64,000 bases of DNA from Acetobacterium malicum subsp. dehalogenans DSM 11527 (GTDB taxonomy: Bacteria; Bacillota; Clostridia; Eubacteriales; Eubacteriaceae). Position 1 is the stretch's first letter, and each line of letters starts with the position of its first letter. Of the stretch, positions 1 through 57,569 are shown in pieces. A program made the position numbers and the translations under genes. The notes under the pieces were generated by a model. That model did no database searches. It saw nothing but the letters and a program-made list of their open reading frames with translations, and was not told where the DNA came from. The stretch lies in assembly GCF_000472665.1 (NCBI RefSeq), contig NZ_AXAC01000012.1:1-64000 (forward strand), written 5' to 3'.

Positions 1-270
1 GTACTTCCGAGGTTAAGTTGCTCCGCTTGTTGTTAAAACGACCATCTCAATATATATGACTCAGCTAATTTTCGGACGTCCCCACTTTTGGAAAGGTTAT
101 CCTTCATATATACCATCACTGGTTCACTTGCGTTCCGTTCCAACAACCGCCATCAGCTTCCTTCAGACCCTTCCGTCGCCGGAAACGCCCTTGCTTACAG
201 CTTGTCTTCCCAATTAGCCAGGTGACAGGTCTTCTTTCAGACCATTAGCTCGGCAACATGCCTCGCAAAC
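1..270 (-). other. Possible 5' part of a group II intron (partial, window edge)
   Basis: No protein-like frame is visible here. Read leftward from about 270, the sequence begins GTTTGCGAGG and is rich in short purine-rich stem-loop segments. The stretch around 80-150 resembles, from memory, domain I of clostridial group II introns. It starts a few bases past a terminator hairpin, which is where group IIC introns insert. The catalytic domain V and any reverse transcriptase would lie outside the window, so this stays tentative. Another structured RNA is possible. Confidence 0.35.
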
Positions 271-15947: not shown

Positions 15948-17468
15948 TTATTTAAGCAGCATCTTATTGACCGCATTAATCAGCGCCAGAGCACTGGCCC
16001 GCATCACATCCTGTTCAATGGCTTTTCCCGAGAATAATTGGTCATCACAGCGAATCTGGGCCGTGACCTTACCCAAACTCCCCTTGCCCCGGCTTAAGCT
16101 GTTGATCCGATAATCGATGAGTTCAACCGGCGCCCCAACGGCTTCCATAATGGCTCCATAAAGGGCATCGATGACACCGGCGCCACTCTGACTCATTTCC
16201 ACAGCTTTGTCACCGCGGGCCAGCTTTACTGTCGCCGAGGGCAAGCCGTCGCTCACCTTCAGCTGATAATCGACCAGCTGCCATAATTCCCGGCTATTAC
16301 CGCGGCTGGGGACGCCACTGTTTTTCAGCAGGGTCAGCACATCATTATCGTAGATTTCTTTTTTGGCATCGGCCATGGTCAAAAACTGCTGGTAGATTTC
16401 TGCCACCGATTCCGCGGGGATATCAAAGCCCAGGCGCTGAGTAACGTGGATAAAAGCATGCCGACCGGATCTGGCGGTAAGGACAATTTCCATTGCCGGC
16501 GCTCCGATGGTTTGCGGATCCATAATTTCATAGACATCTTTGGATTTAAGCAACCCATCCTGATGGATTCCCGAGGAATGAGCAAAGGCATTTTCTCCGG
16601 TGATGGCCTTGTTCACCTGAAGATCCAGCCCCATGGTGGCGCTGACCATCCGCGAGGTTTCATAGATTTTCCGGGTATCCACCGTGGTATGTCCGCCATA
16701 ATAAGCTTCGTGCAGTTGAATCCCCATGACTACTTCTTCCAGTGAGGTATTCCCAGCTCGCTCTCCGATCCCGTTGATGGTGCACTCCACCTTATCCGCC
16801 CCGTTTTTAACGGCTGCCAGGGTATTGGCGGTGGCCAGACCGGTGTCATTATGACAGTGAACACTGAGCATCACCTGGGGGTCCAGATTTTTTAGCCGGT
16901 CATTGATGCGGTAGATCAGCTTGCCAAATTCTTCGGGAATGGCAAACCCCACTGTGTCCGGCACATTAATGATGGTGGCCCCCGCCTTGACCACCGCTTC
17001 AATGGTTTGCCAGAGATACTCAAACTCTGAGCGACTGGCATCTTCCAGCGAATACTGAACCTGGGGCAGCAGGCTGCGGGCATATTTAACTGCGCCGACC
17101 CCCATTTGAATAACCTGCTCCGGTGTTTTTCTGAATTTCTTGGCGACGTGCACATCCGATGAGCCCAGGACAATATGAATCAACGGATTCTCAGCCGCCC
17201 GGATGCTCTCATAAATGCAGTCAATATCCGCTTGGACCGCCCGACCCAGGGCGGCGATCCAGACATCTTTCCCGATTTTCCGACTGATCGCCCGAACCGC
17301 CTCAAAATCGCCTTGGGATGACGAAGGGAAGCCCACCTCCATCATATCGACCTTCATTTCGGCAATCTGCTCAGCGACCTCCAACTTCTCAGCCAGATTC
17401 AATTTGGCGCCCGGTACCTGTTCCCCATCCCTTAAGGTGGTGTCAAAAACATAAATTTTTCGTGACAT
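15948..17468 (-). CDS. leuA: 2-isopropylmalate synthase
   Basis: First committed enzyme of leucine synthesis: acetyl-CoA plus 2-oxoisovalerate gives 2-isopropylmalate. The HMGL-like TIM barrel starts with DTTLRDGEQVPG and carries the metal motif HCHND near 205 and the signature NGIGERAGN. The C-terminal 150 residues form the regulatory LeuA dimer domain (ending in DYRINSLSRGKGSLGKVTAQ and onward), so leucine feedback is expected. Full length at 506 residues. It is preceded by a leucine T-box leader. No leuB, leuC or leuD lies next to it in this window. Confidence 0.96.
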   Translation of the reverse strand: MSRKIYVFDTTLRDGEQVPGAKLNLAEKLEVAEQIAEMKVDMMEVGFPSSSQGDFEAVRAISRKIGKDVWIAALGRAVQADIDCIYESIRAAENPLIHIVLGSSDVHVAKKFRKTPEQVIQMGVGAVKYARSLLPQVQYSLEDASRSEFEYLWQTIEAVVKAGATIINVPDTVGFAIPEEFGKLIYRINDRLKNLDPQVMLSVHCHNDTGLATANTLAAVKNGADKVECTINGIGERAGNTSLEEVVMGIQLHEAYYGGHTTVDTRKIYETSRMVSATMGLDLQVNKAITGENAFAHSSGIHQDGLLKSKDVYEIMDPQTIGAPAMEIVLTARSGRHAFIHVTQRLGFDIPAESVAEIYQQFLTMADAKKEIYDNDVLTLLKNSGVPSRGNSRELWQLVDYQLKVSDGLPSATVKLARGDKAVEMSQSGAGVIDALYGAIMEAVGAPVELIDYRINSLSRGKGSLGKVTAQIRCDDQLFSGKAIEQDVMRASALALINAVNKMLLK

Positions 17469-17492: not shown

Positions 17493-17898
17493 GTAGTTGA
17501 TGCAAAAAGCTCCCTTATCATCTCAATCAGAGACGAAAAGGGAGCTTTCCGCGGTACCACTCTTATTCATACAGAGATCTGTATGCACTTTATCGATACC
17601 CTTTACTACCCTGAAGATTTTTGTATAAAAAAACGCCTGTCTCAAACGAGACAGACGAAAAATCTGCTATACCACTCTATTTTATACGTGTCTTCAATAC
17701 GGGTTTAATAAAACCGATATCCATCCCCTATAACGGTAGGCTTCCGTCTTAACCTAGTTTTGCTGACTTCATCAGCATTATTTCAGCAAGCAACTCCGAG
17801 GTGAGTTCATCGTCTTCTGATTTCTGCTTCACACCACCCAGCAGATCTCTGAAAATCATCCAATAACTACTATTCCTCATCAACATCTTTTTGATATT
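17493..17898 (-). promoter_or_regulatory. Leucine T-box leader with two antiterminator/terminator modules
   Basis: This RNA leader senses uncharged tRNA. On the minus strand Stem I carries GGTGGTGTGA and then the likely specifier CTC (Leu) just before ACC. A canonical T-box GTGGTACCGC is at 17551-17560, followed by a terminator hairpin AAAGCTCCCTT/AAGGGAGCTTT (17506-17548) and a T-run. Upstream of that lies a second, T-box-like GTGGTATAGC (17667-17676), followed by its own terminator GTCTGTCTC/GAGACAGGC (17635-17656) with seven T. Only one Stem I is visible. Confidence 0.9.
17635..17656 (-). terminator. First (promoter-proximal) terminator within the T-box leader
   Basis: On the minus strand GTCTGTCTC and GAGACAGGC form a nine-pair stem with a four-base loop, followed by TTTTTTT. 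It lies between the two T-box-like motifs, so transcripts would meet it before the canonical antiterminator. Confidence 0.8.
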
Positions 17899-18214: not shown

Positions 18215-19090
18215 TCAGCGCAGAATATCCCTGGCGATTTTCTTCGCCGTGGGGGTATCGGCCAGACCACCTTCCGCCGTTTCTTTTAATGATTTTGGCA
18301 TGGCATCACCAATCGCTTTCATGGCGCCAATCACCTCATCCACCGGGATGGTGCTCTCAATGCCGGCTAAGGCCATCTCCGCAGCAATCAGAGCATTGGC
18401 GGCACCACTGGCATTGCGTTTGACACAGGGCACCTCCACCAGCCCGGCCACCGGATCACAGACCAGTCCCAGTACACTTTTCAGGGCCATCGCACAGGCA
18501 TGGGCACACATTTGGGGGGAGCCGCCCATTAATTCAACCGCCGCTGCCGCTGCCATTGCTGCGGCACTGCCGCATTCTGCCTGACAGCCGCCTTCCGCTC
18601 CAGAAATGCTAGCCTTTCTGGCAATTACCATGCCGAGTCCGGCGGCGGTAAAAAGACTCATCACCACCCGCTCCTCAGACAAATCGTTTTCTTCTTGCAA
18701 GGTCAGCAAGACGGCCGGAATAATCCCGCAGGAACCGGCTGTCGGCGCGGCCACAATTCTGCCCATACAGGCGTTCACTTCGGCAATCGCCAGCGCCTTG
18801 GCCAGAGTTTCACTGAGCACCTTACCACTAAGGGATCGGCCTGCATCAACCGACTGTCTCATTTTATTGGCATCGCCGCCGCTGAGTCCACTGGCCGATT
18901 TACTCACTGCGGTAAGGCCTTTAGCAGCCGCATCCGCCATCACCTGAAGGCTGGCCCGCATCTGCTCAAAGAGTTCTTCCTGAGGCTGTTCCATTTGCCG
19001 GGCCTGATCCTCTAACACCAGCTCAGAAATCATTTTCCCCTTTTTTTTCGCCTTGTCTACCAGTTCCTGTATCGAATCATAACTTATCAT
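18215..19090 (-). CDS. sdaAA: L-serine dehydratase, alpha subunit
   Basis: Catalytic subunit (291 residues) of the two-subunit, oxygen-sensitive [4Fe-4S] serine dehydratase that turns serine into pyruvate and ammonia. Conserved features include APTAGSCGIIPA, the cysteine-containing GAEGGCQAECGSA and CDPVAGLVEVPC, which provide iron-sulfur ligands in this family. The start lies eight bases after the sdaAB stop. As the last gene of the glycine operon it drains serine, made by the GlyA half of the fusion protein, into pyruvate. Confidence 0.95.
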   Translation of the reverse strand: MISYDSIQELVDKAKKKGKMISELVLEDQARQMEQPQEELFEQMRASLQVMADAAAKGLTAVSKSASGLSGGDANKMRQSVDAGRSLSGKVLSETLAKALAIAEVNACMGRIVAAPTAGSCGIIPAVLLTLQEENDLSEERVVMSLFTAAGLGMVIARKASISGAEGGCQAECGSAAAMAAAAAVELMGGSPQMCAHACAMALKSVLGLVCDPVAGLVEVPCVKRNASGAANALIAAEMALAGIESTIPVDEVIGAMKAIGDAMPKSLKETAEGGLADTPTAKKIARDILR

Positions 19091-19098
19091 CTTTGCTC

Positions 19099-19761
19099 CT
19101 AATAGATCGGCTTAATTAAGACAGCCTTTTTCACCTTGTTCACCGCTTCGATTAAACTGACCAGCTCACCCTTAACCGCCTGATCGGTTTCGATCACCAT
19201 CATCGCCTCCCCGCCACGATGGGACCGGTACACATTCATCTCGGCAATGTTAATTCCCTGATCCGCCAACAGATTGGTCACCGCCGCAATCATGCCCGGG
19301 GTATCGTTATGAGGCACCAGCAAAGTATAGTATTCGCCGTTAAATTTGACATTGATCTCGTTGATCCGGTTGACCACAATTCGGCCACCGCCGACTGACG
19401 ATCCCTGGACGATGGTTTTTTTGCCGGTTTGATCAACCGCTGAAATCAGGGCCGTGTTGGGATGAACTTCTTTATTGTGAGACTTCTTGAATTTAAATGC
19501 CATGCCCAGCTCCCGGGCCAGCTCAAGACTGTCTTTAATCCGCTCGTCATCAGGCGCCATCCCGAGCAGCCCGGCAATAATCGCCTTGTCGGTACCGTGG
19601 CCCTTATAGGTTTGGGCAAAGGAGCCATAAAGCTCAATGGTCACCGCTGCCGGCTGCCCGCCGGCCACCGCCCGGGCTATTTTTCCGATCCGCACCGCAC
19701 CGGCCGTATGGGAAGAGGACGGGCCCACCATAATCGGTCCGATAATATCAAATACATTCAT
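19099..19761 (-). CDS. sdaAB: L-serine dehydratase, beta subunit
   Basis: Partner subunit of 220 residues. The N-terminal domain bears the family signature IGPIMVGPSSSHTAGAVRIG, and the C-terminal 75 residues form an ACT domain (VTNLLADQGINIAEMNVYRS), which may bind serine. It forms the enzyme with SdaAA, encoded just downstream. A 112-base spacer after gcvPB without a terminator keeps it in the glycine operon. Confidence 0.95.
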   Translation of the reverse strand: MNVFDIIGPIMVGPSSSHTAGAVRIGKIARAVAGGQPAAVTIELYGSFAQTYKGHGTDKAIIAGLLGMAPDDERIKDSLELARELGMAFKFKKSHNKEVHPNTALISAVDQTGKKTIVQGSSVGGGRIVVNRINEINVKFNGEYYTLLVPHNDTPGMIAAVTNLLADQGINIAEMNVYRSHRGGEAMMVIETDQAVKGELVSLIEAVNKVKKAVLIKPIY

Positions 19762-19873: not shown

Positions 19874-21334
19874 TTATACCTCTTTGGCATATCGCAAGAC
19901 CGGTTTTCGCACCGCCTTGACCTCATCCAACCGTTTCACGATAGTATCGTGGGGGGCGCTCTTTAGCAGCTCCGGACTGGTTTCGGCTTCTCTGGCAATT
20001 TGCCGCATCGCTTCAATAAACTCGTCCAGGGTTTCCTTGCTTTCAGTCTCCGTCGGTTCAATCATCAACGCTTCTTTGACAATCAAGGGGAAATAAATCG
20101 TCGGTGGATGATAACCAAAATCAATCAGCCGTTTGGCAATGTCAAGGGCCGAAACCCCAAATTTCATCTGCTTCTGGGCCGAGAAGACGACCTCATGCAT
20201 ACAGGTCTTGCCGAAGGGCAATTCATAATCATCCTGAAGTCTGGCGCGGATATAATTGGCATTGAGCACCGCTGTTTCCGAGGCTTCCCGAAGACCCACC
20301 GCCCCCAAAGAGCGGATGTAGGCAAAGGCTTTGACCACTACCGCAAAATTGCCATAGAAAGATTTAACCCGGCCAATCGATAAGGGGCGATGATGATCTA
20401 AATAATACGCATCCTCAGCCCGTTCCACCACCGGCCCCGGCAGGAAGGGCACCAACTCTTTTTTGACCCCCACCGGACCGGAACCCGGGCCGCCGCCACC
20501 ATGAGGGGTGCTGAAGGTTTTGTGCAGATTAAGGTGCACCACATCAAAGCCCATGTCACCGGGGCGGGTCTTGCCCATGATGGCATTCATATTGGCCCCG
20601 TCATAATAGAGCAGTCCGCCGGCCTGATGGACAATCTCGGCTATTTCGACAATGTTTTCTTCAAACAAGCCCAGGGTGCTGGGATTGGTGAGCATCAGCC
20701 CGGCAATCTCATCACTCATCACAGCCTTTAATGACGGGATGTCGACGCCGCCAGATTCGTTGGATTTCACTTCGATCACATCGAAACCAACTACTGATGC
20801 CGAAGCCGGATTGGTGCCATGGGATGAATCCGGCACGACGATTTTTTGTCGCTTCGTGTCACTGCGGTGCTGATGATAGGCTTTGATAATCATCAGTCCG
20901 GCCATTTCGCCATGGGCGCCAGCCGCCGGTTGCAGCGATACCCGGGCCATTCCGGTGATCTCCGCCAGCATCCGGTCGGTTTGATAAAGGAGTTCCAGCG
21001 CGCCCTGAACGGTTTTTTCTGATTGATAAGGATGGATTCGCGAAAATCCGCTGTATCTGGCCACGTCTTCATTGATCTTGGGATTATATTTCATCGTACA
21101 GGAACCCAGCGGGTAAAAGCCGGAATCCACGCCGTGATTCATTTTCGACAAGGCGGTAAAGTGACGAACCGCATCCACCTCGCTGACCTCCGGCAGTTCC
21201 ACGGACTGCGCCCGTAAAAATTCGGTCGGAATCACGCTGCCAAGGTCCCTTTCCGGGACATCGCAGGCCGGTAACAGGCTGGTTCTGCGGCCCGGAACCG
21301 ACTTTTCAAAAATCAGTGCTTCGTTCTTAATCAC
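19874..21334 (-). CDS. gcvPB: Glycine dehydrogenase (decarboxylating), subunit 2
   Basis: P-protein beta half of 486 residues that, with GcvPA, decarboxylates glycine and loads the aminomethyl group on the lipoyl arm of GcvH. The PLP lysine is in [16 protein letters not shown]. Full length for the split form found in firmicutes. Its start overlaps the gcvPA stop by eight bases, so synthesis of the two halves is coupled. Confidence 0.96.
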
Positions 21335-22673
21335 AATGGTTCACCGCCTTTTCTACTAAACTGTCCATTTCTGGTCGGGTCCGTTTTTCGGTCACCGCCA
21401 GCAACCAGCCGTTTTTTAACTCCGGATACGACTGCTCCACAGCATAACCGCCGATAACATGATCCGCGAGCAAAGCCTCGTTTAGTACTTCGGTGTCACA
21501 ACTGCTGGTCACGGTAAACTCCTTGAAAAAGGGCGCTGAAAAAACGGGCGCAAATTTTCCCGACTTGATCAACTGATCATAAAGGTAATGGGCTTTGTTG
21601 AGGCAGAGGGTAGCCACTTCTTTTAACCCCTCCTTGCCGAGCACGGTCATGTAAATGGTCGCCGCCAAAGCATTTAAGGCCTGGTTGGAGCAAATGTTAG
21701 AAGTGGCCTTATCCCGGCGGATATGCTGCTCTCTGGTCTGCAGGGTCAGCACAAAGGCGCGCTTGCCATCGAGATCGGTGGTCTGTCCAACGACCCGACC
21801 CGGCAGCTTCCGCATCAATGCCTTGGAGGTGGCCATGAAACCCAGACCCGGACCGCCAAAACTGATCGGATTACCCAGACACTGGCCATCGCCAACGACA
21901 ATATCGGCCCCCAGTTCGCCGGGGGATTTAAGGATTGCCAGCGAAATCGGATCGACACTGGCAATCAGAAGCGCTTTATGCTGGTGCGCCAGTGCGGCGG
22001 CCTGGCCGAGATCTTCAATGATCCCAAAAAAGTTGGGACTCTGGACGATCACCGCCGCGGTTTGCTCGGAACACGCTGCCGCCAGCGCGTCCAGATCGAT
22101 ACTGCCATTGTGGTAGCCAATCTCTTTCACCACGATGCCCTTATAACGGGCATAGGTTTTTAACACTTCCCGGCTCTCGGGATGAACGGTGTTGGCAATC
22201 AGCACCTCATTTTTTCCGGTATGGCTACAGGCCATGGCGACTGCCTCGGCCAGCGCGGTGGCGCCATCATACATCGAGGCGTTAGCAATGTCCATGCCAG
22301 TCAGCTCACAGATCATCGACTGAAACTCGAAGATTGCCTGCAGGGTGCCCTGGCTGATTTCCGGCTGATAGGGGGTATAGGCAGTATAAAACTCCTGCCG
22401 CGAGATCAGATTACCCACCGCGCTGGGGATGAAGTGATCATAAGCCCCGGCGCCAAGAAAACAGCTGGTGTCATCAAGATTTATGTTTTTCTGGGACAGC
22501 TTCCGCATGTAGCTGGTCAGCTCCAGTTCTGATAAAGCCGGTGGTAATTCCAGATCCCGGCTCAGACGCACCGCTTCCGGGATGTCGGCAAAAAGTTCCT
22601 GAATCGAATCGTTTCCCATCTCTGAAAGCATGGCTTGTTGTTGCGCTGTGGTATTGGATATGTAGGATGCCAC
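21327..22673 (-). CDS. gcvPA: Glycine dehydrogenase (decarboxylating), subunit 1
   Basis: P-protein alpha half of 448 residues, with family segments [29 protein letters not shown] and [15 protein letters not shown]. It forms the heterotetramer with GcvPB. The start codon is GTG at 22671-22673, with a GGGGG ribosome site eight bases before it, and begins ASYISNT. It follows the gcvT-glyA fusion after 13 bases. Confidence 0.96.
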
Positions 22674-22686: not shown

Positions 22687-25329
22687 TTATAACGTTGATT
22701 TTAGTTTTTCCAACTGGGCGGCAATCGCTTCGTCGTCAAAACAATAGTTAAGCTTGGTGAAGTTACCTCTCAGCTTCGTCACCTCTTCTTTAGCATCTTT
22801 ATTTCTTAAGATCACATCGGCCATCAAGCCCGCGGTTTCAGCAAACTCTTTGTCACCAAAACCGAACCGGGTCATTTCCGCGACGCCGATCCGGATGGCC
22901 CCCGAAGCGGTAAAGCCCTCTTCTTCCGGGGTGGCCTGATAGTTGATGATAATATTGTTAGCTTCCAGCCGATTGGCTACTTCGGGACCACTGCCATAAC
23001 CAACCCGCACCACCACCTGATGGGTCTCGGTGTAAGAGATCGCCGGATCGCCCGCCACATCCAGGCCGGCATCAGCCAGACATTTGGCAAAATATTTGGC
23101 ATTATGGATAACATTTTTCTGGTATTCGTCTTTAAAATAGTTCATTTCGTAGGTGGCCATCAGCAGACCCAGCATCGTGCCCAGATGGTGATTGCTGACA
23201 CTACCGGGGAAAGCCCGGGTTTCAATGGTTTCCCAAAGACCATATTTATAATCGTCCTTGTCATAGTTCCCGGCAATGATGCCCCGCTGCGTCCCAAAGA
23301 AAGTTTTGTGGGTGGAACCGGTTACCAGTTCCGCCCCTTCGGCAAAGGGATCCTGGAAATGGTCGCCCACCAGCCCCAGCACATGAGCCATATCATACAT
23401 GATGATCGAACCCAGTTTCTGATCATCGACGAAGCTTCTGATCTCGCGGACTGGTTCCTTATGCAGGACCATGCTCTTGCCAAAGATAATCAGCTCCGGC
23501 TGGTATTGGGCGATCACCTTTTTGGTTTCGGCCACATCGATCTTGAAGGGGTTATCCTTTTCCACCGGGAAATTGACCACCGCCGTTTTTTCCGTAATTG
23601 GATCAATGGCAATATAGTCGTGGAGGGCCCCCATCGGCTGAGCACTTAAATGGCCGCCTTTGATGATATGATTATTCATGACATAGCCCAGCCGTTTGGC
23701 ATCGACCTTCCGGTTAACCCGGTTTTTATAATCCATCAGCGCACTGAAGACCGCCACATTGGCCATTTGACCGCTGATCACCCGGGTTTCCACCTCGGCA
23801 CAATTGAAGTATTTTTTCATTTCTTCCATCATCAAATATTCAATCTCATCAATAAAGGCCGTCCCCTGATAATAAAACACATCATAATCATAGAAGGATT
23901 TTGTTTTTTTGTGCTCGGCATAACGGAAAGATGGGTCCATCACCGACAATAACCGCACCGCCGCTGAATGCGACTGTTCCGAGGGAATCAGGTTAATGGT
24001 TTGGTGTTGTCGCAGAATGGTGTTGTCATAGCTTCTTTCCAACAGATTCAGAGCTTTGGTTTGATAGTCCGGCGCACTGTCAAACTGACGCTCAATTTCG
24101 ACGCCATAAATAATTGGTCGGGCAAAAGGCGGGGCATCACTTTTCATATGGTAGGGGGCGATTACCGCCGCTACCATCTTGCCGCGGATTTCCACATCAA
24201 CCTGATCATTTAGCTCAACATCCCCATCAATCAGGGCCAGGCCAATGGCCCGCATCGCTTTTTCATCGGTTATTTTGCTGTCCAGCCCGTAGCCCTCGGC
24301 CTTTAAATAAGGCACCATGGTGGCGCTGGTAATCACTCCAACTTCCTTCCCAGCTTTAAAGACTTTACAACCAGCTCGGGCAATACCCCGGCCAGTAATC
24401 GCAATTGGTCTGACAATCCGGGGTAATTCCGATAAATCGGAAAGATTCCGTTCCATAATTTTTTTAAAACCAAGATATTGTTTAGCCAGGGCTGCTCGGC
24501 CGATATAATCGCCTTTGACCTCGGCAAAACTGACCGCAAATTTGGCCAGTGGACAAGAAAAAATGGGGATCTCGTTACCGTCATTATCAAGTCCCAGCTC
24601 ATGGCCATAAAGCGGCAGACCGCCTTCCAGTCTCAAGGTGTCCCGGGCTCCCAGGCCGATAGCCATCGCTCCCAGTTCCAGCAGCTTTTCCCAAATTTCG
24701 GGGGCTTGGGATGCCTTGGCAAACAGTTCAAAACCCAGTGGTTCACCAGTGTAGCCGGTTCGGGCAATCAGCAAGGGCGCACCTTGATAATCAAGAATGC
24801 CCAGGGCATTTTTAAGCGGTTCGGTCAGATTCTCGCTGCCGGTGAGTTTTTTAAGCACCGTTTTTGAATCGGGACCCTGAAGCGAAATCATCGCAATTTC
24901 AGCCGATCGATCAACGATTTTGGCATCAAAAAATTTTATTTCCGTGTTCAGGTGATTCCAGTCTTTTTCGGCGTTGGCCGCATTGACCACCAGCAGAAAC
25001 TCATCTTCATAAAAGCGATACAGATAAGCATCATCCAATGCCCCGCCGTGACAATTCTGGATCATTGTGTATTGAGCCTGTAGCAGATCAAGAGCCAAGA
25101 CATTGTTGGTTAACACATATTGCAAAAAAGCCGTGGCTTCCCGGCCGGAAACAATAAAGCGGCCCATGTGTGAGACATCAAAGATACCGGATTTGATGCG
25201 GGTATGGATATGCTCGTCGACGATTCCCGCGGGATACTGGATCGGCATTTCCCAGCCCCCAAAATCCACCAGGGTTGCCCCGGCCTGGACATGATTATCA
25301 TAAAACAGTGTTCGTTTTAGTGCTCCCAT
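22687..25329 (-). CDS. GcvT-GlyA fusion: aminomethyltransferase plus serine hydroxymethyltransferase
   Basis: A single uninterrupted 880-codon frame. Residues 1 to about 370 are a complete T-protein (VDFGGWEMPIQYP, GLGARDTLRLEGGLPLYGHEL, and the C-terminal barrel with GVITSATMVPYLK). After a short linker, about 400-870 is a divergent serine hydroxymethyltransferase with NLIPSEQSHS, GQMANVAVFSAL and the PLP lysine near 675 in STHKTFFGTQRG. The T half makes methylene-THF and ammonia; the SHMT half can join methylene-THF and glycine to give serine. Start by GGAGATG. Each half is near full length, so this is a true bifunctional protein rather than a truncation. Confidence 0.92.
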   Translation of the reverse strand: MGALKRTLFYDNHVQAGATLVDFGGWEMPIQYPAGIVDEHIHTRIKSGIFDVSHMGRFIVSGREATAFLQYVLTNNVLALDLLQAQYTMIQNCHGGALDDAYLYRFYEDEFLLVVNAANAEKDWNHLNTEIKFFDAKIVDRSAEIAMISLQGPDSKTVLKKLTGSENLTEPLKNALGILDYQGAPLLIARTGYTGEPLGFELFAKASQAPEIWEKLLELGAMAIGLGARDTLRLEGGLPLYGHELGLDNDGNEIPIFSCPLAKFAVSFAEVKGDYIGRAALAKQYLGFKKIMERNLSDLSELPRIVRPIAITGRGIARAGCKVFKAGKEVGVITSATMVPYLKAEGYGLDSKITDEKAMRAIGLALIDGDVELNDQVDVEIRGKMVAAVIAPYHMKSDAPPFARPIIYGVEIERQFDSAPDYQTKALNLLERSYDNTILRQHQTINLIPSEQSHSAAVRLLSVMDPSFRYAEHKKTKSFYDYDVFYYQGTAFIDEIEYLMMEEMKKYFNCAEVETRVISGQMANVAVFSALMDYKNRVNRKVDAKRLGYVMNNHIIKGGHLSAQPMGALHDYIAIDPITEKTAVVNFPVEKDNPFKIDVAETKKVIAQYQPELIIFGKSMVLHKEPVREIRSFVDDQKLGSIIMYDMAHVLGLVGDHFQDPFAEGAELVTGSTHKTFFGTQRGIIAGNYDKDDYKYGLWETIETRAFPGSVSNHHLGTMLGLLMATYEMNYFKDEYQKNVIHNAKYFAKCLADAGLDVAGDPAISYTETHQVVVRVGYGSGPEVANRLEANNIIINYQATPEEEGFTASGAIRIGVAEMTRFGFGDKEFAETAGLMADVILRNKDAKEEVTKLRGNFTKLNYCFDDEAIAAQLEKLKSTL

Positions 25330-25352: not shown

Positions 25353-25730
25353 TTAGTCGTTACAGATTGTTTCGTATGCTGTGGCATCCATCAGCTCATC
25401 CAGTTCCGCCAGATTGTCCATTTCGACACAGACCATCCAGTTTTCAAAGGCATCGGCATTGACCAGCTCCGGTTCATCCACCAGCGCTTCATTTATTTTG
25501 ACAATTGTCCCAGATACCGGCAAATAAACGTCTGAGGCCGCCTTTACCGATTCGACCACACCAAAGGTTTCATCTTTCCCAATTGTATCGCCAATCTCCG
25601 GCAATTCAATATAGACAATATCCCCCAATGAATGCTGGGCAAAATCGGTTATCCCGATAGTCGCCAGATTGCCCTCAACTTTTACCCACTCATGATCCTT
25701 TGAATACTTCAAACCTTCAACAATTTTCAT
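25353..25730 (-). CDS. gcvH: Glycine cleavage system H protein
   Basis: Lipoyl carrier of 125 residues that shuttles the aminomethyl and dihydrolipoyl groups between P, T and L proteins. The lipoylated lysine is Lys63 in ESVKAAS. The ATG at 25730 with GGAGG upstream is chosen over an in-frame start 13 codons earlier. It is the first gene of the operon after the riboswitch. No gcvL or lipoate ligase gene is in the window. Confidence 0.96.
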   Translation of the reverse strand: MKIVEGLKYSKDHEWVKVEGNLATIGITDFAQHSLGDIVYIELPEIGDTIGKDETFGVVESVKAASDVYLPVSGTIVKINEALVDEPELVNADAFENWMVCVEMDNLAELDELMDATAYETICND

Positions 25731-25808
25731 CTTTCTTATCCTCCATATTTTTAGTTTCTGTAAATTCAATACCCATACCGAAATTTACCCATTCCGATTT
25801 TTAATAAA

Positions 25809-25836
25809 CAAAAAAACAGAAGGCTTACGCCTTCTG
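25809..25836 (-). terminator. Glycine riboswitch expression-platform terminator
   Basis: CAGAAGGC (25817-25824) pairs with GCCTTCTG (25829-25836), loop of four, with a T-run on the minus strand. It follows directly after the second glycine aptamer. Confidence 0.88.
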
Positions 25837-25839
25837 CTC

Positions 25840-26003
25840 TGTTATTGACCTGAGAGATTCTTTCCTTTTGGGAAGTTGCCCCTTCGGTGCTACGCTTTCC
25901 AGAGTTATGTCCGGTTACGGTCCCCTTTACCTGAGATCATCACTGATATTAGCTAAATATCGGCTTTATCCTTCGGTGCTGCACTTATGCAGACTCTCCC
26001 GTA
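25840..26003 (-). promoter_or_regulatory. Tandem glycine riboswitch
   Basis: Two glycine aptamers in series on the minus strand: the first opens GGGAGAGTCTGC, with GCACCGAAGG, and the second repeats GCACCGAAGGGGC; each ends with CTCAGGTA- or CTCAGGTC-type closing segments. It precedes gcvH and ends in an intrinsic terminator, consistent with the usual ON switch in excess glycine. Confidence 0.95.
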
Positions 26004-26077
26004 TCCATCATCCATTCGCATCTATTTAATTGTGTTTCGTCGATCTGTTTCGTTTCGGTATTTCTTAAGTTTATGTG

Positions 26078-26356: not shown

Positions 26357-29300
26357 ATGAAAAAAATCTTATCGATCTTACTGATCTGCTGGGCGCTATT
26401 TCCCATCCATTCGGTTTTGGCGGCATCGGCAGATACCACTGATTTACCGGTTCTTTCCCGGGGTCATATTCAGGATCTCGGCGATTACCCGGCAGATGGT
26501 TCCTGGGTAGAAAGCCCCAAGCTTATTGGTACCGTTGGCCAGAGCAAACGGATTGAAGGCTTTGAATTAAAAGCCAGTGACAGCCTGCCAGCAAACATTG
26601 AGCTACGCTACAATGTCCATGTCCAGAACATCGGCTGGCTCTATGACGAGGATGATCCCTCAAGCTGGGCTAAAAATGGGGAGTATGCCGGCACCCGGGG
26701 GAACAGCCTGCGGATTGAAGCGGTTAAAGTCGTCCTGCTCGATGCTTCCGGCCATAAAGCCTCCGACTACCATATCCGCTACCAGGGTCATGTTCAGAAC
26801 ATTGGCGATCTGCCTGCTGATTCAGAACAATGGTTTAGCGATGGTGAACAGCTTGGAACCGTGGGCAGCTCCCTGCGCCTGGAAGCGTTGAAGCTGGAAA
26901 TTGTCAAGGATGCCTCGACTGGCACCGATTTAAGTGACTACACTGCCCTGATAAAACAAATTGACAGTCTAAACGAATCCGACTACAGCAAAAGCTCCTG
27001 GACCAACCTGCAGACGGTTCTAAATAATCATGTTGTTACCGACAAAAACACGACAGCAGAAGTGGCTGATGCTGTTAAAGCCATCGAAGCAGCTATCCAC
27101 CAGCTTGAAAAGTTGAGTACCACCACAGCCTACGACAAGCCCGGCATCTATGGTCCCTCCAGCGGCTCGGAAACGATCAGTCAGGATGTGATCATCACCT
27201 CAACCGGGGTAACGCTTCAAAACCTGACCATTGGTGGTAACCTGATTATTGATAAAGCCGTTGGTGACGGCGAGGTCACCCTGAACAATGTCACTGTCAC
27301 CGGCGAGCTCCGGATTCGTGGTGGCGGCAAAAATAGTATTCATATCAATGGTGGCGATTATCAGAATATCCTGGTGGAAAAAACCGCCACCGGGGCAGTG
27401 CGCATTGTCGCTACCGGACTTGACGGGTTTCCTATTGTTTTAAGTGAAAACGCTGCTGGAGAAACCCTGATTCTGGAAGGCAGCTTTGGTTCAGTAACCG
27501 TCAATGCGCCGGATGCCGTGATTAAAACCCAGGGCCAGACCAGCATTAAAACCTTTGACGTCGCCGCAGCAGCCCAAAACACGGCTATTGATCTTGGCAG
27601 CACCACCACCGTGACAAATTTGGCGCTGTCATCGCCAACTAAGGTGACGGGTACTGGAACCGTCAACAAAGCTGAGATTGCTTCAGATAATGTCAGCTTT
27701 GAAAAAGCGCCTGAGGACTATACCGTCGATACCGGTGTGATCGTGCCACCCGTGATCCCAACACCAACACCTGAACCGCCGACACCACAACCGCCGACAC
27801 CACAACCGCCAACACCACAACCGCCAACACCACAACCGGGTAAAATCAGTCTGAGTGTGACCACGGCCCCAACCGTCACCCTGTCAAAAACCTATGATGG
27901 CAGCACCGTTACCGATGTGACAAATCAGATTCTTGATCCAACCGCGATCACCGGGATAGTGGCCGGCGATGACGTGACCGTCAGTGCTACGGCTACCTAT
28001 GACAATAAAAACGCCGGCAACAAAGACATTACCATCACCTACAGTCTTTCCGGCACGGATGCCGCCAAGTATACCGCTCCGGCCAAAGCTACCATCAGCG
28101 GCGAGATCGCTAAAGCCAATCTGACGGTACCAGCCCCAACCACAACCAAAACCTATGATCAAACCGCCACGGCAACCCAGAACATCACCCCAACTGCCGG
28201 GAAAATCAATGGTGATATCCTGACGGTGACCGAAACCATCACCTTTGATACTGCCAGTGCTGGTAAAGACAAAAGCGTCACCTGCAGCTATGCCTTAACC
28301 GACACCGATGCCGTTAATTACAATGTTCCTGCTGATCAAAGCTTTGATGACGGTGAAATTATCGCGAAACCGATCACAATCACTGGAACCACGGTGGAAA
28401 TCAGCAAGACCTATAACCGCAACGATGGAGCCGTAGTGATAAATCCCGGTGCCAGCAGCAATATTATCAGTGGCGATACGGTAATCATAGAAGCCACCGC
28501 CTATTATGCAACCAGCAGCGCCAGCACCAACCAGCCGATTTATGTGACCTATACGCTAAATGGCAGTGAAGCCGCCAACTATCAGGTCACCTATACTGAT
28601 CCCCAGACCCTGGCAACTCATTCGGGCCTTTCATTTATCAAACTGATCGACAATGGTGTGATTAATAAGGTTCAGCTAACCAACAAGCAAGCCCCGTCTG
28701 TTGCAAACAAAACCTATGATGGCAACGCCACGACCAATATTACCAAGACCGCGGTTAACACCGGTGATATTTCCGGGATTTGCTCAGGCGACACGGTGAA
28801 CCTGACTGCCACGGCCAGCTTTGCTGACGCCAACGTCGGAGTAACCAAACAAGTCACCATCACTTATCAGATCACCGGCGGAAGCGGATCTGAAAACTAC
28901 TTGCCGCCGGTTAATGGCACCGCTACCGCTACCATTAGCCTACTGGAATTTGATACCACCCGTGTGATTGACAGCCCTTCCAAAGAGTATGATGGTACCA
29001 GCACAGCTACTGTCAATGTTGGGCTTTTTATAACAGATCAAAATGTCTTGGCAATTGTTGGCCCTGCACTCCAAAACAAGCGCATCACCTTTGATATTTC
29101 GGCTGACTATACTGATGGCAGCGGTAACAAAACCAGCGCTGTCGGCAGCAATTATACCATTGCCTATAGCTTTAAACTAAGCGGACCGGATGCTGGTAAC
29201 TTTAAGTTAACAGGCTCCGACGCCAACAACGTTATTACTGGCAGCCATCCCGGTAGCAACATTACTCAGAAGAAACTGACGGTTACCGCTGATACTCTGG

Positions 29301-30727
29301 GGCTGCAAACTGAGAAAACCTATGATGGCAATATCACCACCAATGTGAACGGCAAAACCATCACGGGCGGCACTGGTCTGATGGGGATCGTCGGCACGGA
29401 GAAGGTCACCGCGATGGTATCAAGCAACTATGACAGCGTAGATGCCGGCGACCGTAATATCACCACCAGCTTTCTGCTTAGCGGCGATGACAGCGGCAAT
29501 TACTGTATTGATCCCCTGACCAGCAGCGGGAAGATCAAGCCGATTCAACTGGAAGTCGACAACACCAAGCTCCCCGCCATCGCGGCGACACGAAAATATG
29601 ACGCCACTACCGATGTTTATCTGGCCGATAACACAACCAAATTATCGTACTATACCGTCAATGCTGGTGCCGTCAGCGGCTTAATCAATAACGAGACAGT
29701 AACGGTCAACGCCACCGCCAACTATGACAATAAAGATGTCGGTGAAAACAAACCGATTACCATCACCTACAGCCTAAGCGAAGAGGCCGCTAAAAACTAC
29801 CTGGCCCCGGCTCCGGATACCTCAAAAACGGCGGCGATTACAGCCAGAATCTTAGGTTATACCAATGTCGCTCTGGAAACCATGAAGAAAAATGACGGCA
29901 CCAGCAGCGCGAAGATCACGAGTGCAGAAATTGATTCTACTACAGCAAGCGGAGATGGTGTCGTCCATAAGAGTGGTACTAGCGAACTGGAAAATGTGCA
30001 TCTCGGATCCTACCGCGCTGATTATTACGAAAGTGATTTAAGTAACACAACCAGTGCAACTGGCCAACACCCCATTGTGATCACCGGCACCCTGGCCGGT
30101 GCCGATGCCGGCAATTACGTCATGCGCGATAATACTGTCCCTGGCAAGATTCTTGATGCTAATGCGGTCATCTCCACCCCGTACAACAGCACAAACTGGA
30201 GTGTCTCCGGCAACCTGACCCCGCCGTCTGGCGTTGCCAATTTTAAACTCTTTTACGCCAAGCAAGCGGGTGTTACGACCTTTTACGGCTACGATAGTAC
30301 TGGACAAATCTACAGCTCTACCAATTTAAGCGCCTGGACAACCGGTGCTCAGGTGACATTGGACGGCAGCAAAAAGCTGATTGGTATCGATAGTTCCAGC
30401 AATCCCTTAGCCATTGCCACCACCCCTGACACTGACCAATACACCAACACATCCCACTCGGTTTATTACTGGACTGGCGGAACTTTCGGCAGCTGGAACA
30501 ATTATAGTGCCTTAACAAACATCCAACCAATCAACCCGACTTATTATACTGAAGGCACCACCGACTATCTGATTTATCAGGACGAAAATAACAATGTGAC
30601 TAAGCAAAAATTTGCTGCTTTCGACAAAACCCCAATCGGCTCTTACCCGGGCCCGTCTATCCCCAGCAGCTTTACCAACTCCCTGCTGGTCTATGACGGC
30701 AACACCCTGATGTTCTACGCTTACTAA
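26357..30727 (+). CDS. Large secreted protein with ChW repeats, beta-helix and YDG repeats
   Basis: A 1456-residue export protein. A signal peptide covers about 1-23. Three clostridial hydrophobic-W (ChW) repeats lie at about 34-180 (GHIQDLGDYP, VHVQNIGWL, GHVQNIGDLP). A helical segment of about 70 residues follows, then a parallel-beta-helix-like region (265-455), a Pro-Thr linker, and about seven YDG-type repeats opening K-x-Y-[DN] (500-1270). A unique C-terminal domain fills the last 110 residues. No LPxTG anchor or S-layer homology domain is present, so ChW repeats may hold it to the surface. It may serve adhesion or surface structure; a substrate cannot be named. Confidence 0.88.
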   Translation: MKKILSILLICWALFPIHSVLAASADTTDLPVLSRGHIQDLGDYPADGSWVESPKLIGTVGQSKRIEGFELKASDSLPANIELRYNVHVQNIGWLYDEDDPSSWAKNGEYAGTRGNSLRIEAVKVVLLDASGHKASDYHIRYQGHVQNIGDLPADSEQWFSDGEQLGTVGSSLRLEALKLEIVKDASTGTDLSDYTALIKQIDSLNESDYSKSSWTNLQTVLNNHVVTDKNTTAEVADAVKAIEAAIHQLEKLSTTTAYDKPGIYGPSSGSETISQDVIITSTGVTLQNLTIGGNLIIDKAVGDGEVTLNNVTVTGELRIRGGGKNSIHINGGDYQNILVEKTATGAVRIVATGLDGFPIVLSENAAGETLILEGSFGSVTVNAPDAVIKTQGQTSIKTFDVAAAAQNTAIDLGSTTTVTNLALSSPTKVTGTGTVNKAEIASDNVSFEKAPEDYTVDTGVIVPPVIPTPTPEPPTPQPPTPQPPTPQPPTPQPGKISLSVTTAPTVTLSKTYDGSTVTDVTNQILDPTAITGIVAGDDVTVSATATYDNKNAGNKDITITYSLSGTDAAKYTAPAKATISGEIAKANLTVPAPTTTKTYDQTATATQNITPTAGKINGDILTVTETITFDTASAGKDKSVTCSYALTDTDAVNYNVPADQSFDDGEIIAKPITITGTTVEISKTYNRNDGAVVINPGASSNIISGDTVIIEATAYYATSSASTNQPIYVTYTLNGSEAANYQVTYTDPQTLATHSGLSFIKLIDNGVINKVQLTNKQAPSVANKTYDGNATTNITKTAVNTGDISGICSGDTVNLTATASFADANVGVTKQVTITYQITGGSGSENYLPPVNGTATATISLLEFDTTRVIDSPSKEYDGTSTATVNVGLFITDQNVLAIVGPALQNKRITFDISADYTDGSGNKTSAVGSNYTIAYSFKLSGPDAGNFKLTGSDANNVITGSHPGSNITQKKLTVTADTLGLQTEKTYDGNITTNVNGKTITGGTGLMGIVGTEKVTAMVSSNYDSVDAGDRNITTSFLLSGDDSGNYCIDPLTSSGKIKPIQLEVDNTKLPAIAATRKYDATTDVYLADNTTKLSYYTVNAGAVSGLINNETVTVNATANYDNKDVGENKPITITYSLSEEAAKNYLAPAPDTSKTAAITARILGYTNVALETMKKNDGTSSAKITSAEIDSTTASGDGVVHKSGTSELENVHLGSYRADYYESDLSNTTSATGQHPIVITGTLAGADAGNYVMRDNTVPGKILDANAVISTPYNSTNWSVSGNLTPPSGVANFKLFYAKQAGVTTFYGYDSTGQIYSSTNLSAWTTGAQVTLDGSKKLIGIDSSSNPLAIATTPDTDQYTNTSHSVYYWTGGTFGSWNNYSALTNIQPINPTYYTEGTTDYLIYQDENNNVTKQKFAAFDKTPIGSYPGPSIPSSFTNSLLVYDGNTLMFYAY
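27776..27835 (+). repeat. Four 15-bp tandem repeats encoding a Pro-rich linker
   Basis: The unit CCGCCRACACCACAA is repeated four times, encoding PPTPQ each time, between the beta-helix and the YDG repeats. The units are nearly identical, so copy number could vary between strains. Confidence 0.9.
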
Positions 30728-45138: not shown

Positions 45139-46491
45139 TTATTTCTTCTGAAATCTGGGAATGCTGTTCAGGTCATAATCCTGATTAGATGTCAGATCCA
45201 AATATGGATAACGACCGACAATCGCCCGGATATTTTTCTTAGGATCATTTTTATTGCCCCAGACAACCGTGATTTCAGTGCCGATTTGGGCATATTCGGG
45301 TTCAATAACACAGAGTGAAATCACTTCCTGATAATGAGCGGTATAGATTGGCTGCATGGAAGCCCCAATCATTTTGCCATCCTGATCAAGGACGCGGTCC
45401 TGAGCATTACCAAAGCCATTGCCATTCTGATCAAAAGGCAGTGGGAATTGCTTGTATTTCTTCTCGCCCTTTCTAAAGTTGGACGCATACAAATCAATGA
45501 TATCTTCGCTGTTCCAGACCAGAGTCACCACTTGGCGATGAGGTCGAGCGGCGATTTTTTCCAGTGCTTCTCTACCGTTGAAATCGTGATCAAACTTCAC
45601 CATGTGGCCCCAACCCAATTCAATGGGATTACGGTAATAATCATGCATATCATCTGACAGACTACCTAAAGTTGGCAACAACAACGGATCAAACAAAAAG
45701 CCGATTTCTTTTTGATACACGCCAAAACCAGGCTCTTCATCAAATGGATATGGAAAATGCTGACCGATTTGCGGAAAGCCATTTTCGGTATGATTACATT
45801 GGTATGACAGCCATCCCAGTTTTTCAATACCATATGCAGTGCCCACTTCAACGATTTTATTATAGACATCATGACTGTCATCCAAAATGCCATGAACTTC
45901 ATAAGAAATGGTTCCGCCCATTCCCATCCGGATGATCCGAACTGGGTGACCAGCAATGGTTGCCGTCATAAATCGCATGAATTTCAAATCATGAAAATCT
46001 TCTTCGGCAGCATTTTCCAGTATTTCCAGACTTTTAGGACCGGCTATTTGGTAAATAAAATCGATAAAACCTCTTTCTTCAATCCGCTCAACGTCATATT
46101 TTCCACTATTGGCAATGAAGTTGATAAACGGATGAAATGCATAGGTACCAAACTCATCTTCTGCCAAACGGATAACCATCCCATGCTCAATGATATTCCC
46201 ATTTTTGGTAACCATAATTCCATGTCGGCCGGTGCCAACTTTCATAGTGGAAAAATTATTGACAAAGTTCTCATTCATGAGTTTTTCTGCATCTTTTCCT
46301 TTGACTGTATGCATGGCCATCAGCCCGGAAAGGTTGCCGCTGATATAACAGCTGTTTTTCCAGGCATTTGTTTCTGGCACCCACCCGTTAAAGGTGGTGG
46401 CAACGGCAACGCCTCCGAAATTTTTATAATCACTAACAAATGGCGAAAATGGTACGGTGGGATTAAGTGGCAATGCTGTTATTTCTTTCAT
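45139..46491 (-). CDS. GcvT-family demethylase, LigM/DmdA-like
   Basis: A 450-residue relative of the aminomethyltransferase GcvT, longer than T-protein and similar in size to the THF-dependent aromatic O-demethylase LigM and to DMSP demethylase. A THF-fold region is seen around SYEVHGILDD and GHMVKFDHDFNGREAL. It lacks the GLGARDTLRLE stretch of true T-protein. It sits between a URO-D-type methyltransferase and an MtrH-like gene, so direct methyl transfer from a methoxylated or methylated substrate to THF is plausible. The substrate is inferred only. Confidence 0.8.
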   Translation of the reverse strand: MKEITALPLNPTVPFSPFVSDYKNFGGVAVATTFNGWVPETNAWKNSCYISGNLSGLMAMHTVKGKDAEKLMNENFVNNFSTMKVGTGRHGIMVTKNGNIIEHGMVIRLAEDEFGTYAFHPFINFIANSGKYDVERIEERGFIDFIYQIAGPKSLEILENAAEEDFHDLKFMRFMTATIAGHPVRIIRMGMGGTISYEVHGILDDSHDVYNKIVEVGTAYGIEKLGWLSYQCNHTENGFPQIGQHFPYPFDEEPGFGVYQKEIGFLFDPLLLPTLGSLSDDMHDYYRNPIELGWGHMVKFDHDFNGREALEKIAARPHRQVVTLVWNSEDIIDLYASNFRKGEKKYKQFPLPFDQNGNGFGNAQDRVLDQDGKMIGASMQPIYTAHYQEVISLCVIEPEYAQIGTEITVVWGNKNDPKKNIRAIVGRYPYLDLTSNQDYDLNSIPRFQKK

Positions 46492-53208: not shown

Positions 53209-53770
53209 GGCCGTCCTCATGACCCCAGCGGATAAACAGATTGTGGGGAATCTTTAGCATATCGAAGACTTTGCCGACACTCTGGTTGATTATTTCATCA
53301 ATGGATTGGGGTTTGTGGTAAAAGCCCGGCATCGGCGGCAGAATAATGCCACCGGCCTCGGTTACGGCGGTCATATTGCGCAGATGAATCAGGGTCAGCG
53401 GTGTTTCCCGGACCATCAAAATTAGCGGTTTGCGTTCCTTCAAGGCCACATCGCCGATCCGGACGATCAGGTTATCGCTGAAGCCGTTGGCAATCCCGGC
53501 CAGGGTTTTCATGCTGCAGGGTGCAATCACGGTAGCGTCGATGCCATAGGAACCACTGGATACGGCCGCCGCCATATCCCGGCTGTCGTAGACACAGTCG
53601 GCCAGTGACAACACGTAATCCTCGGTATAACTGGTTTCCAGGCCAATGGTTTTGCTGCCCCATTCGCTGAGGATCAGCGAAACATGGTGTTCAGTCGCCT
53701 TTAAGGCTTCGAGCAGCCGGATGCCATAAACGACACCGGATGCCCCGGTAATTCCCACTGCAATTTTCAT
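53201..53770 (-). CDS. ubiX: UbiX-family flavin prenyltransferase
   Basis: A 189-residue flavoprotein that prenylates FMN to make the cofactor of UbiD decarboxylases. It has the nucleotide site GITGASGVVYG at the N-terminus, SSGSYGIDATVIAPCSMKTL, and the C-terminal RETPLTLIHLRNM. Its ATG shares one base with the hyuB stop. It supplies prFMN to the UbiD protein of the same operon. Confidence 0.95.
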   Translation of the reverse strand: MKIAVGITGASGVVYGIRLLEALKATEHHVSLILSEWGSKTIGLETSYTEDYVLSLADCVYDSRDMAAAVSSGSYGIDATVIAPCSMKTLAGIANGFSDNLIVRIGDVALKERKPLILMVRETPLTLIHLRNMTAVTEAGGIILPPMPGFYHKPQSIDEIINQSVGKVFDMLKIPHNLFIRWGHEDGHE

Positions 53771-55497
53771 CAAGATTTTCTCCGTTTTTCTGTTTTTTCA
53801 AAATCGATGCCGGTTTCATTGATGATGACCCCGTAAACTGCTTCGGCGGTTTCTTTGGAAATAATCTCATCCAACACGTCATCATAAACTTTTTGCGGGG
53901 CCCGTTTCATGGGTTCGCCCCAACCGCCGCCGCTGCTGGTGTTCAGATAAATCCGATCACCTTTCACTGCATGGCGGGGGGCTTCCTTGCTTTCCATGAT
54001 GATTTCCTCACCGTCATGAAAAAAAACGCTGCGGTTCAGGCTGCCCGGATGACCGCCCCGGAGGCCGTAGGGGGCAAATTTAATGCCGTCGCCAAAATTG
54101 ACCACATCGCCCTTTTCAGCAGTGATCTCAAAAGCATATTTCATGCCGCAGCCACCCCGATATTCGCCGGCGCCGGCGGTGTCATTATCCATCTCATGAT
54201 GCAGGGTAATATGGGGGTACTGCACTTCGTTAGACTCAATATTCGGGGCCTTGACCCCGCCAAAATTCGATAAGGTCGCCATATAGGGTTTACCGTCATG
54301 GCCGGCCATGGCCCCGCCGCTACCCAGCGAACAGAAGGAAAAGCCGACATAGTAACGGTCATTCCGGGGATCCACCCCATAAAAAGATGGTCCCAGATAA
54401 CGATGGTAGCCGGCCGATACCCGGCCTGACTGGGCCTGATCCAGGGCTTTAAAAATCGTTCCGATGATTTCGCTGGCCGGGGTCAGGGTACACAGCGTCA
54501 TTGGCGCCGGGAGCCTGGGATTGACCAGCGAACCCTCGGGCAGATTGACCTCAATGCAGCGAAAAGCACCGCTGTTCCGGGGTATGTCTTTGCCCAGAAA
54601 CCATAAGGCCGCGATACCAGAAGCGCAGGTAGCCGTCACCACCGAGGTGTTGATAAAGCCTTTGACCTGGGCGTCGGTGCCGGAAAAATCGACCAGCATC
54701 CGGTCACCGGTGATGGTCACCGCCACGGCGATTTTGACCGGTTCGGTTTGAAAACCGTCATCATCTATATAATCGACGGCGGTATAGGTGCCGTCCGGCG
54801 TGGCAGCAATCCGCTGACGGGTCAGCGTTTCGGTCTGAATCAATGACTCTGTCACCGCTTTCTTAACGGTGGCCACCGAATAGGTGCTTAACATCTCTTT
54901 GATCCGTCGAGCCGCCAGCCGGTTGGAACCGATCTGGGCCAGAAAGTCGCTGGTGAGCATCTCCGGATTTCGGGTATTCAGGCGAATCAGTTCCAGCACG
55001 TCGGTAATCATTTCGTTGTTTTTCATCAGCCGGGTCGGTGGAATCCGCAGCCCTTCCTGAAAGATCTCCGTCGCCTTGGGGTTATAACTGCCGGCGGTGG
55101 AACCGCCGATGTCGCCGTGATGAGCCCGGCTGACACAGAAGAACAACAGCTCGTCCTGATAAAATACCGGGGTAATGATGCCGATATCCGGCAGATGATT
55201 GCCGCCGTCATAGGGATCGTTGATGATAAAAACATCACCGTCTTCGATGGCTCCGCCGAATTTCCGCAGCACCGCTTTGACACTGAAAGACCCGGCGGTG
55301 GCTAGAATCGGAATGCCACTAAGTTGGGAGACCAGTTCCCCGGCCGCGTCGCAGATACAGCAGGCAAAATCACAGGCTTCGGCAAAAATCGGGGAATGGG
55401 CCGAACGCTCCAGGGCGATCCCCATTTCGCTGGTGATGCTGTCGAGCCGGTTCATAATGACGGTCCGGTTAATAATATCGTCAGTTCGCTGATTCAT
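53770..55497 (-). CDS. Hydantoinase B/oxoprolinase-family subunit
   Basis: A 575-residue HyuB/AcxB-like protein. Typical segments are RSAHSPIFAEACDFACCICD, FIINDPYDGGNHLPDI, the N-terminal HGDIGG, and the C-terminal GGGWGEP. Members pair with HyuA to form ATP-dependent hydantoinases, oxoprolinases or acetone/acetophenone carboxylases. The ATG at 55497 with AGGAGG lies inside the end of hyuA (17-base overlap). Confidence 0.9.
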   Translation of the reverse strand: MNQRTDDIINRTVIMNRLDSITSEMGIALERSAHSPIFAEACDFACCICDAAGELVSQLSGIPILATAGSFSVKAVLRKFGGAIEDGDVFIINDPYDGGNHLPDIGIITPVFYQDELLFFCVSRAHHGDIGGSTAGSYNPKATEIFQEGLRIPPTRLMKNNEMITDVLELIRLNTRNPEMLTSDFLAQIGSNRLAARRIKEMLSTYSVATVKKAVTESLIQTETLTRQRIAATPDGTYTAVDYIDDDGFQTEPVKIAVAVTITGDRMLVDFSGTDAQVKGFINTSVVTATCASGIAALWFLGKDIPRNSGAFRCIEVNLPEGSLVNPRLPAPMTLCTLTPASEIIGTIFKALDQAQSGRVSAGYHRYLGPSFYGVDPRNDRYYVGFSFCSLGSGGAMAGHDGKPYMATLSNFGGVKAPNIESNEVQYPHITLHHEMDNDTAGAGEYRGGCGMKYAFEITAEKGDVVNFGDGIKFAPYGLRGGHPGSLNRSVFFHDGEEIIMESKEAPRHAVKGDRIYLNTSSGGGWGEPMKRAPQKVYDDVLDEIISKETAEAVYGVIINETGIDFEKTEKRRKS

Positions 55498-57556: not shown

Positions 57557-57569
57557 CTTTGACCTTCTT

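Follow-up and report, generated by a model that had tools for sequence, protein, structure and literature searches.

The window, that is, the whole stretch of 64,000 nucleotides that was analysed, carries on its minus strand a glycine cleavage operon in which T-protein (GcvT) and serine hydroxymethyltransferase (SHMT) are encoded by a single gene. A tandem glycine riboswitch precedes the operon, whose gene order is gcvH > gcvT-SHMT > gcvPA > gcvPB > sdaAB > sdaAA. The individual features are the following:

25835 to 26015, minus strand: tandem glycine riboswitch (RF00504 and RF03166), 5' of gcvH and the operon
25353 to 25769, minus strand: gcvH (H-protein); the NCBIfam match begins at residue 14
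22687 to 25329, minus strand: gcvT-SHMT fusion gene, 880 residues, calculated mass 97.9 kDa
24124 to 25329, minus strand: T-protein (GcvT) domain, residues 1-402, from Pfam/NCBIfam and the structural match to 1yx2
24067 to 24123, minus strand: linker, about residues 403-421, flanked by the ranges that match in structure (3-402 and 421-860)
22690 to 24066, minus strand: SHMT domain, residues 422-880, from Pfam SHMT and the structural match to 4bhd
23305 to 23307, minus strand: Lys675 in STHKTFFG, the PLP Schiff-base lysine (E. coli Lys229), aligned in 43/43 fusions
21327 to 22673, minus strand: gcvPA (NF001696, 658 bits)
19874 to 21334, minus strand: gcvPB (NF003346, 791 bits)
19099 to 19761, minus strand: sdaAB, L-serine ammonia-lyase beta subunit, iron-sulfur type (TIGR00719, 229 bits)
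18215 to 19090, minus strand: sdaAA, L-serine ammonia-lyase alpha subunit, iron-sulfur type (TIGR00718, 350 bits)

The RF00504 match of the riboswitch spans 25908-26011 and lies above the gathering score (56.6 bits), while the two-aptamer model RF03166, run as a relaxed search, gave 80.3 bits (E 4.9e-17), which is under its gathering score of 110. A glycine riboswitch was also identified at 7 of 15 related loci, the scan covering loci other than L020-L022 and those of Desulfobacterota. As for gcvH, translation probably begins at the internal Met14. The host genome (4.05 Mb in 76 contigs) encodes a separate canonical GlyA (549 bits), and the fusion is its sole true T-protein. A search for GrdB of glycine reductase gave no match in this genome, nor in any control genome, and therefore carries no weight.

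A first-pass annotation of this DNA had proposed that GcvT and GlyA are fused in one continuous frame, with the active-site regions of both halves intact, and the present analysis bears it out on both counts. Translation of 22687-25329 on the minus strand yields 880 codons whose single stop is the terminal one; the coordinates were thus right and the strand is minus, the same coordinates on the plus strand giving a reading frame riddled with stops. The stop or frameshift near residues 370-400 that would have spoken against a fusion is absent, the catalytic SHMT residues are invariant and the T-protein motifs are kept. Pfam places GCV_T at residues 9-246 (253 bits), GCV_T_C at 314-343 and SHMT (PF00464) at 437-834 (134.5 bits versus a cut-off of 27). 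The sequence of the linker varies between relatives. Its dN/dS values in comparisons with L005 and L006, the closest relatives that were tested, are 0.02-0.09, and those of each half are close to 0.05, indicating that the T and SHMT halves are both under purifying selection. Of 44 fusions, 10 have a Shine-Dalgarno-like motif followed by an in-frame start codon in the junction, but its position differs from one to the next and the window gene has none; a separately initiated SHMT is therefore not a conserved feature.

The N-terminal half passes the curated T-protein models TIGR00528 (261.7 versus a cut-off of 235.85) and NF001567 (319.2 versus 300), and in an alignment of 15 rows it keeps the motifs GG.xDD and GLGARDTLR. 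Both D99 and D100 of GG.xDD are invariant in all 15 rows, and one or the other is the equivalent of the catalytic Asp, which we take to be Asp97 in E. coli after the title of a D97N structure entry. Structure prediction from a 70-row alignment gave a model with pLDDT 91 and pTM 0.87, whereas a 15-row alignment yielded pLDDT 60 and was discarded. In the retained model, residues 3-398 superpose on B. subtilis GcvT (1yx2) with a Z score of 46.2 and 2.0 A over 356 residues, and other T-protein structures match as well (1wos, Z 45.6; 3a8i, Z 45.1). The fold, the conserved motifs and an operon with gcvH and gcvP are common to the fusion and to the GcvT proteins of B. subtilis (1yx2) and Thermotoga (1woo/1wos); these, however, are stand-alone, while the fusion carries insertions in the C-terminal barrel region, followed by SHMT.

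Dimethylglycine oxidase/dehydrogenase and the alpha subunit of sarcosine oxidase, which are also among the structural matches, likewise combine the folate-binding GcvT fold with a second catalytic unit that handles one-carbon groups. In those enzymes the one-carbon unit comes from the partner, a flavin dehydrogenase or oxidase, whereas in the fusion the partner depends on PLP and would use the unit up. Pfam and NCBIfam detect no FAD domain in the fusion and GcvT starts at residue 4-9, unlike in the flavin-GcvT enzymes.

In the SHMT half, the equivalents of E. coli S35, Y55, E57, Y65, H126, S175, D200, H203, H228 and K229 are present in 43/43 fusions, and that of R363 in all 42 fusions that have the column, one row being cut; the equivalent of L127 is also kept in the alignment. 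Following E. coli numbering, we take E57, Y65, H126 and L127 to be the residues of folate-dependent transfer; K229 and D200 would be the PLP lysine and PLP Asp, R363 the substrate Arg, and E57 and Y65 catalytic. Canonical GlyA shares with the fusion SHMT its catalytic residues, PLP lysine and fold, but the two are only 23-28% identical over the full alignment and lie on separate branches, and the canonical GlyA model NF000586 is missed by the window protein (254.5 versus a cut-off of 335) as well as by four relatives (262, 263, 243 and 242). The SHMT half had been described at first pass as a divergent branch, which agrees with its position in the tree, far from GlyA, and with sequence searches, in which the best-matching solved structure is M. 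jannaschii SHMT at 179 bits, as opposed to E. coli SHMT at 88 bits. The predicted model of this half superposes on M. jannaschii SHMT (4bhd) with a Z score of 45.6 and 2.0 A over 398 residues, and both proteins carry Gln in place of the canonical Arg235 and Ser in place of the canonical Gly262.

Two features distinguish the fusion SHMTs in what is presumably the pterin site, one at position 347, which would contact folate, and one in the loop between Glu57 and Tyr64. Gln replaces Asn347 in 42/42 fusions with the column, while Asn is found in 15/16 standalone relatives and 11/11 canonical enzymes, and about seven additional residues lie between Glu57 and Tyr64. The M. jannaschii enzyme (4bhd/4uqv), which is reported to prefer a methanopterin cofactor, differs from the fusion in being stand-alone, in having Asn at 347 and in lacking the seven-residue insertion between E57 and Y64. 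Replacement of the folate-contacting Asn347 by Gln means that pterin binding may have changed; and since the window genome also encodes a normal GlyA, the SHMT half could there be redundant or altered.

The first-pass annotation had also suggested looking for the same domain order in other genomes. When a single genome was scanned for each species, 18 fusion loci were identified, and all 18 carry both halves in one frame. Their hosts are Acetobacterium, Sporomusa malonica and S. silvacetica, Clostridium thailandense, Oscillospiraceae and Desulfobacterales, as well as single MAGs labelled Planctomycetota, Nitrospirota and Desantisbacteria. Isolates with the fusion include A. wieringae DSM 1911, S. 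malonica DSM 5090, S. silvacetica DSM 10669, C. thailandense PL3 and Vescimonas fastidiosa MM35. In the phylum of the window, the gene occurs in 2 of 398 sampled genomes, the window's own included, with a weak standalone relative in one more. Within the family of the window, 10 of 40 genomes, all from one genus, gave a match (eight full-length and two fragments), and in a second Bacillota family the fusion was found in 1 of 20 genomes. In Desulfobacterota (the phylum of L020), 43 of 297 genomes gave a match at a threshold of E 1e-35, corresponding to 27 fused and 16 unfused forms, with some of the fused genes cut by contig ends. The one annotated relative that we saw, in Vescimonas fastidiosa, is named just GcvT. 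We found no description of a GcvT-SHMT fusion in open-licence PMC full texts, PMC8407422 and PMC12674515 among them, the search having covered these and not subscription papers. In GcvT-SHMT, known enzymes are combined in a new domain architecture.

In a 72-row tree, the SHMT halves of the fusions form one group with a support of 85, which becomes 100 when the SHMT half of the Desulfobacterota genome G531 is included; standalone Desulfobacterota SHMTs are the neighbours of this group, followed by M. jannaschii. An AU test did not reject the grouping of the fusions with canonical GlyA (p 0.29), and an archaeal-type origin of the SHMT half is thus likely from the sequences, but not proven; the Gln and Ser residues shared with M. 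jannaschii at positions 235 and 262 agree with it. The T halves form one group together with the T gene of G531 (support 100), and the trees of the two halves correlate with r = 0.90 over 43 tips, as expected if one fusion was inherited as a unit. In both half-trees the Bacillota sequences are nested within the diversity of Desulfobacterota, which suggests that the fusion was transferred between phyla. L057 and L100, in which no junction was found, were left out of the trees; the SHMT tree was also calculated without L008, L101 and near-copy GlyAs (L030, L032-L034), and the AU run additionally without L102 and six near copies.

G531 encodes a fusion-type SHMT (L099:4859-6301) and a T-protein (L130:1619-2851) as separate genes in different places. 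Its SHMT half carries Gln at 347 too, but the loop insertion is shorter; it falls outside the fusions (support 85), while the T half falls weakly inside (80). Judging from these placements, the split pair may be either a precursor of the fusion or the product of a later fission. We also considered a pre-fusion pair beside gcvT, but the standalone SHMT relatives do not adjoin any gcv gene in the fetched stretches. In-frame TAG or TGA codons had been flagged in three standalone relatives as possible recoded stops; two of these were the gene's own terminal stop and the third stretch is free of stops, and there is thus no sign of pyrrolysine or selenocysteine.

We then compared the fusion with the remaining complement of SHMT and T-protein genes in each genome. 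No second GcvT above the family cut-off is present in 38 of 44 genomes with the fused gene; the other six (G400, G402, G403, G404, G414 and G108) encode an extra canonical, unfused GcvT above cut-off. The fusion is present in 27 Desulfobacterota genomes, of which 18 lack any further SHMT-family gene that reaches the cut-off and nine have a canonical GlyA as well, whereas of the 254 Desulfobacterota genomes with neither fusion nor standalone relatives, 245 have canonical GlyA and nine have nothing. These categories were tallied by hand from the genome table and the completeness of the genomes is unstated; nevertheless, a canonical SHMT is lacking in 18/27 versus 9/254 genomes, a difference for which missing sequence alone cannot account. 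Canonical GlyA is found in none of the 16 Desulfobacterota genomes with unfused relatives (L084-L098, L101), and the fusion occurs alone, with no GlyA, in 3 of the 18 named-genome hosts, all of them Oscillospiraceae MAGs. The fusion thus appears to have replaced GlyA as sole SHMT in one group of Desulfobacterota. Separately, 15 of the sampled Desulfobacterota genomes gave no SHMT besides a standalone archaeal-type one; in G531 such an enzyme accompanies the fusion-type SHMT.

A gcvH or gcvP gene lies in the fetched stretch of 19 of 38 fusion loci, and the other 19 show no other gcv gene. A role outside glycine cleavage, which these latter loci could suggest, is weakened by the presence of GcvP somewhere in 42 of 45 genomes, G410, G646 and G669 being those with no match. 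The last genes of the fusion operon in Vescimonas are lpdA and the gene for 5-formyl-THF cyclo-ligase, which removes a by-product of the SHMT reaction.

We consider it highly probable, on the strength of domains, conserved residues and gene context, that the protein is a bifunctional enzyme which, together with GcvP, GcvH and lipoamide dehydrogenase, converts two glycines to serine. GcvPA/GcvPB would load the aminomethyl group from one glycine onto H-protein, from which the N-terminal T-protein would take it off to release NH3 and 5,10-methylene-THF. The C-terminal, PLP-dependent SHMT would then combine methylene-THF with a second glycine to form serine, freeing THF for the next round, and the net reaction would be 2 glycine -> serine + CO2 + NH3 + 2[H]. 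In the window organism, serine would be deaminated to pyruvate by SdaAA/SdaAB, and the operon is likely induced by glycine through its riboswitch. Each step is established chemistry of the enzyme families named. We infer both activities and the net direction, and the two activities are well supported indirectly.

The bifunctional reading leaves room for two views of what the fusion achieves. In the first, a sub-case of it to which we lean slightly, the single chain serves co-expression only: both activities are present, methylene-THF is released to the bulk and nothing but stoichiometry is fixed. A plasmid of Priestia megaterium (NZ_CP071467.1) carries the unfused operon glyA-sdaAB-sdaAA-gcvT-gcvH-gcvPA-gcvPB, seven separate genes that cover the same steps from glycine to serine and pyruvate as the window operon, and such an arrangement would be enough to yield a fusion; its glyA and gcvT products together are 32% identical to the fused protein. 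Linkage is also not indispensable, given that the halves of G531 lie at different loci, and the variable linker sequence fits this view as well. Plain co-expression, on the other hand, would not need the family-specific changes in the loop of the pterin site, and the fused form has been kept across several phyla.

In the second view, methylene-THF is passed between the T and SHMT sites without release, as the first-pass annotation had proposed; this is only hypothesised. Asn347 -> Gln and the Glu57-Tyr64 loop are the first places to look for an adaptation of the pocket, and are no proof of channelling. An extended form of this reading, in which a dedicated two-glycine serine synthase hands methylene-THF (perhaps as polyglutamate) to a retuned SHMT pocket, and arose a single time by the joining of a bacterial T-protein to an archaeal-type SHMT, spread between phyla as a unit and displaced GlyA in one Desulfobacterota lineage, is tentative and, taken as a whole, rather doubtful.

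As to the direction of the pathway, operation of the bifunctional enzyme mainly in synthesis, that is, as part of a reductive glycine pathway leading from CO2, NH3 and methylene-THF to glycine, serine and pyruvate, seems unlikely. Glycine riboswitches switch gcv operons on when glycine is plentiful, and the presence of this glycine-sensing family before the window operon points to glycine consumption, although the host is a relative of acetogens. There is also a precedent for the synthetic direction in Dehalobacteriia, where, according to PMC10327494, unfused GcvT/H/P with GlyA and SdaAB were proposed to function in carbon assimilation.

That the SHMT half could be a PLP aldolase or transaldolase of the threonine or fluorothreonine type, acting on another aldehyde and no longer dependent on folate, is very improbable. 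The L-threonine transaldolase 7k34 does appear among the sequence and structure matches, and the replaced Asn347 and enlarged loop could be read in this way, but the 147.2 bits obtained with the fluorothreonine transaldolase model TIGR04506 fail its cut-off of 650. The window gene sits among gcv and sda genes, and of the 27 Desulfobacterota genomes that carry the fusion, 18 have nothing else of the SHMT family. In addition, E57, Y65, H126 and L127 are kept, which argues against a loss of folate dependence if their roles are those we assign to them. An artefact of assembly or annotation, including a frameshift, for which we found no support, is ruled out for practical purposes by the same fusion in independent genomes that include isolates, the intact frame and the dN/dS values.

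Direct passage of methylene-THF from the glycine cleavage system to SHMT is an old question in glycine-to-serine conversion, as in plant mitochondria, and since nature offers both a single chain and, in G531, a split version, it can be put to a direct test with the bifunctional enzyme. The fusion would also provide the SHMT of many genomes that seem from their annotation to have none, as the Vescimonas record named just GcvT indicates, and engineered reductive glycine pathways could take it over as a finished component.

Other features were observed around the fusion loci. In the window, leuA (15948-17468) has its own T-box leader (17526-17892, minus strand) and is probably a unit separate from the gcv operon, and the gene at 26357-30727 (plus strand), divergent from this operon, encodes a protein of 1456 residues, probably a large surface protein, in which clostridial ChW repeats and six stretches of YDG domain are recognized. 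A GcvT-fold protein at 45139-46491 (minus strand) is nearest to vanillate/syringate O-demethylases of the LigM/DesA type, far under their cut-offs, and A. wieringae (G400) shows six weak GcvT-fold matches in frames of 456-506 residues; acetogens may thus possess several folate-dependent demethylases with the GcvT fold. In the Bacillota genomes of L122 and L009, the surroundings of the fusion include corrinoid proteins and MttB-like methyltransferases, as judged by eye from translations. In one Desulfobacterota genome, an 885-codon open frame (L116:5852-8509, minus strand) runs antisense to the fusion gene and is probably a product of base composition. The window further contains two paired genes whose products resemble subunits of caprolactamase and acetophenone carboxylase but score under the curated cut-offs (53770-57721, minus strand), a cobalamin riboswitch (62093-62263, minus strand) and, at its edge, a group II intron domain (17-185, minus strand).
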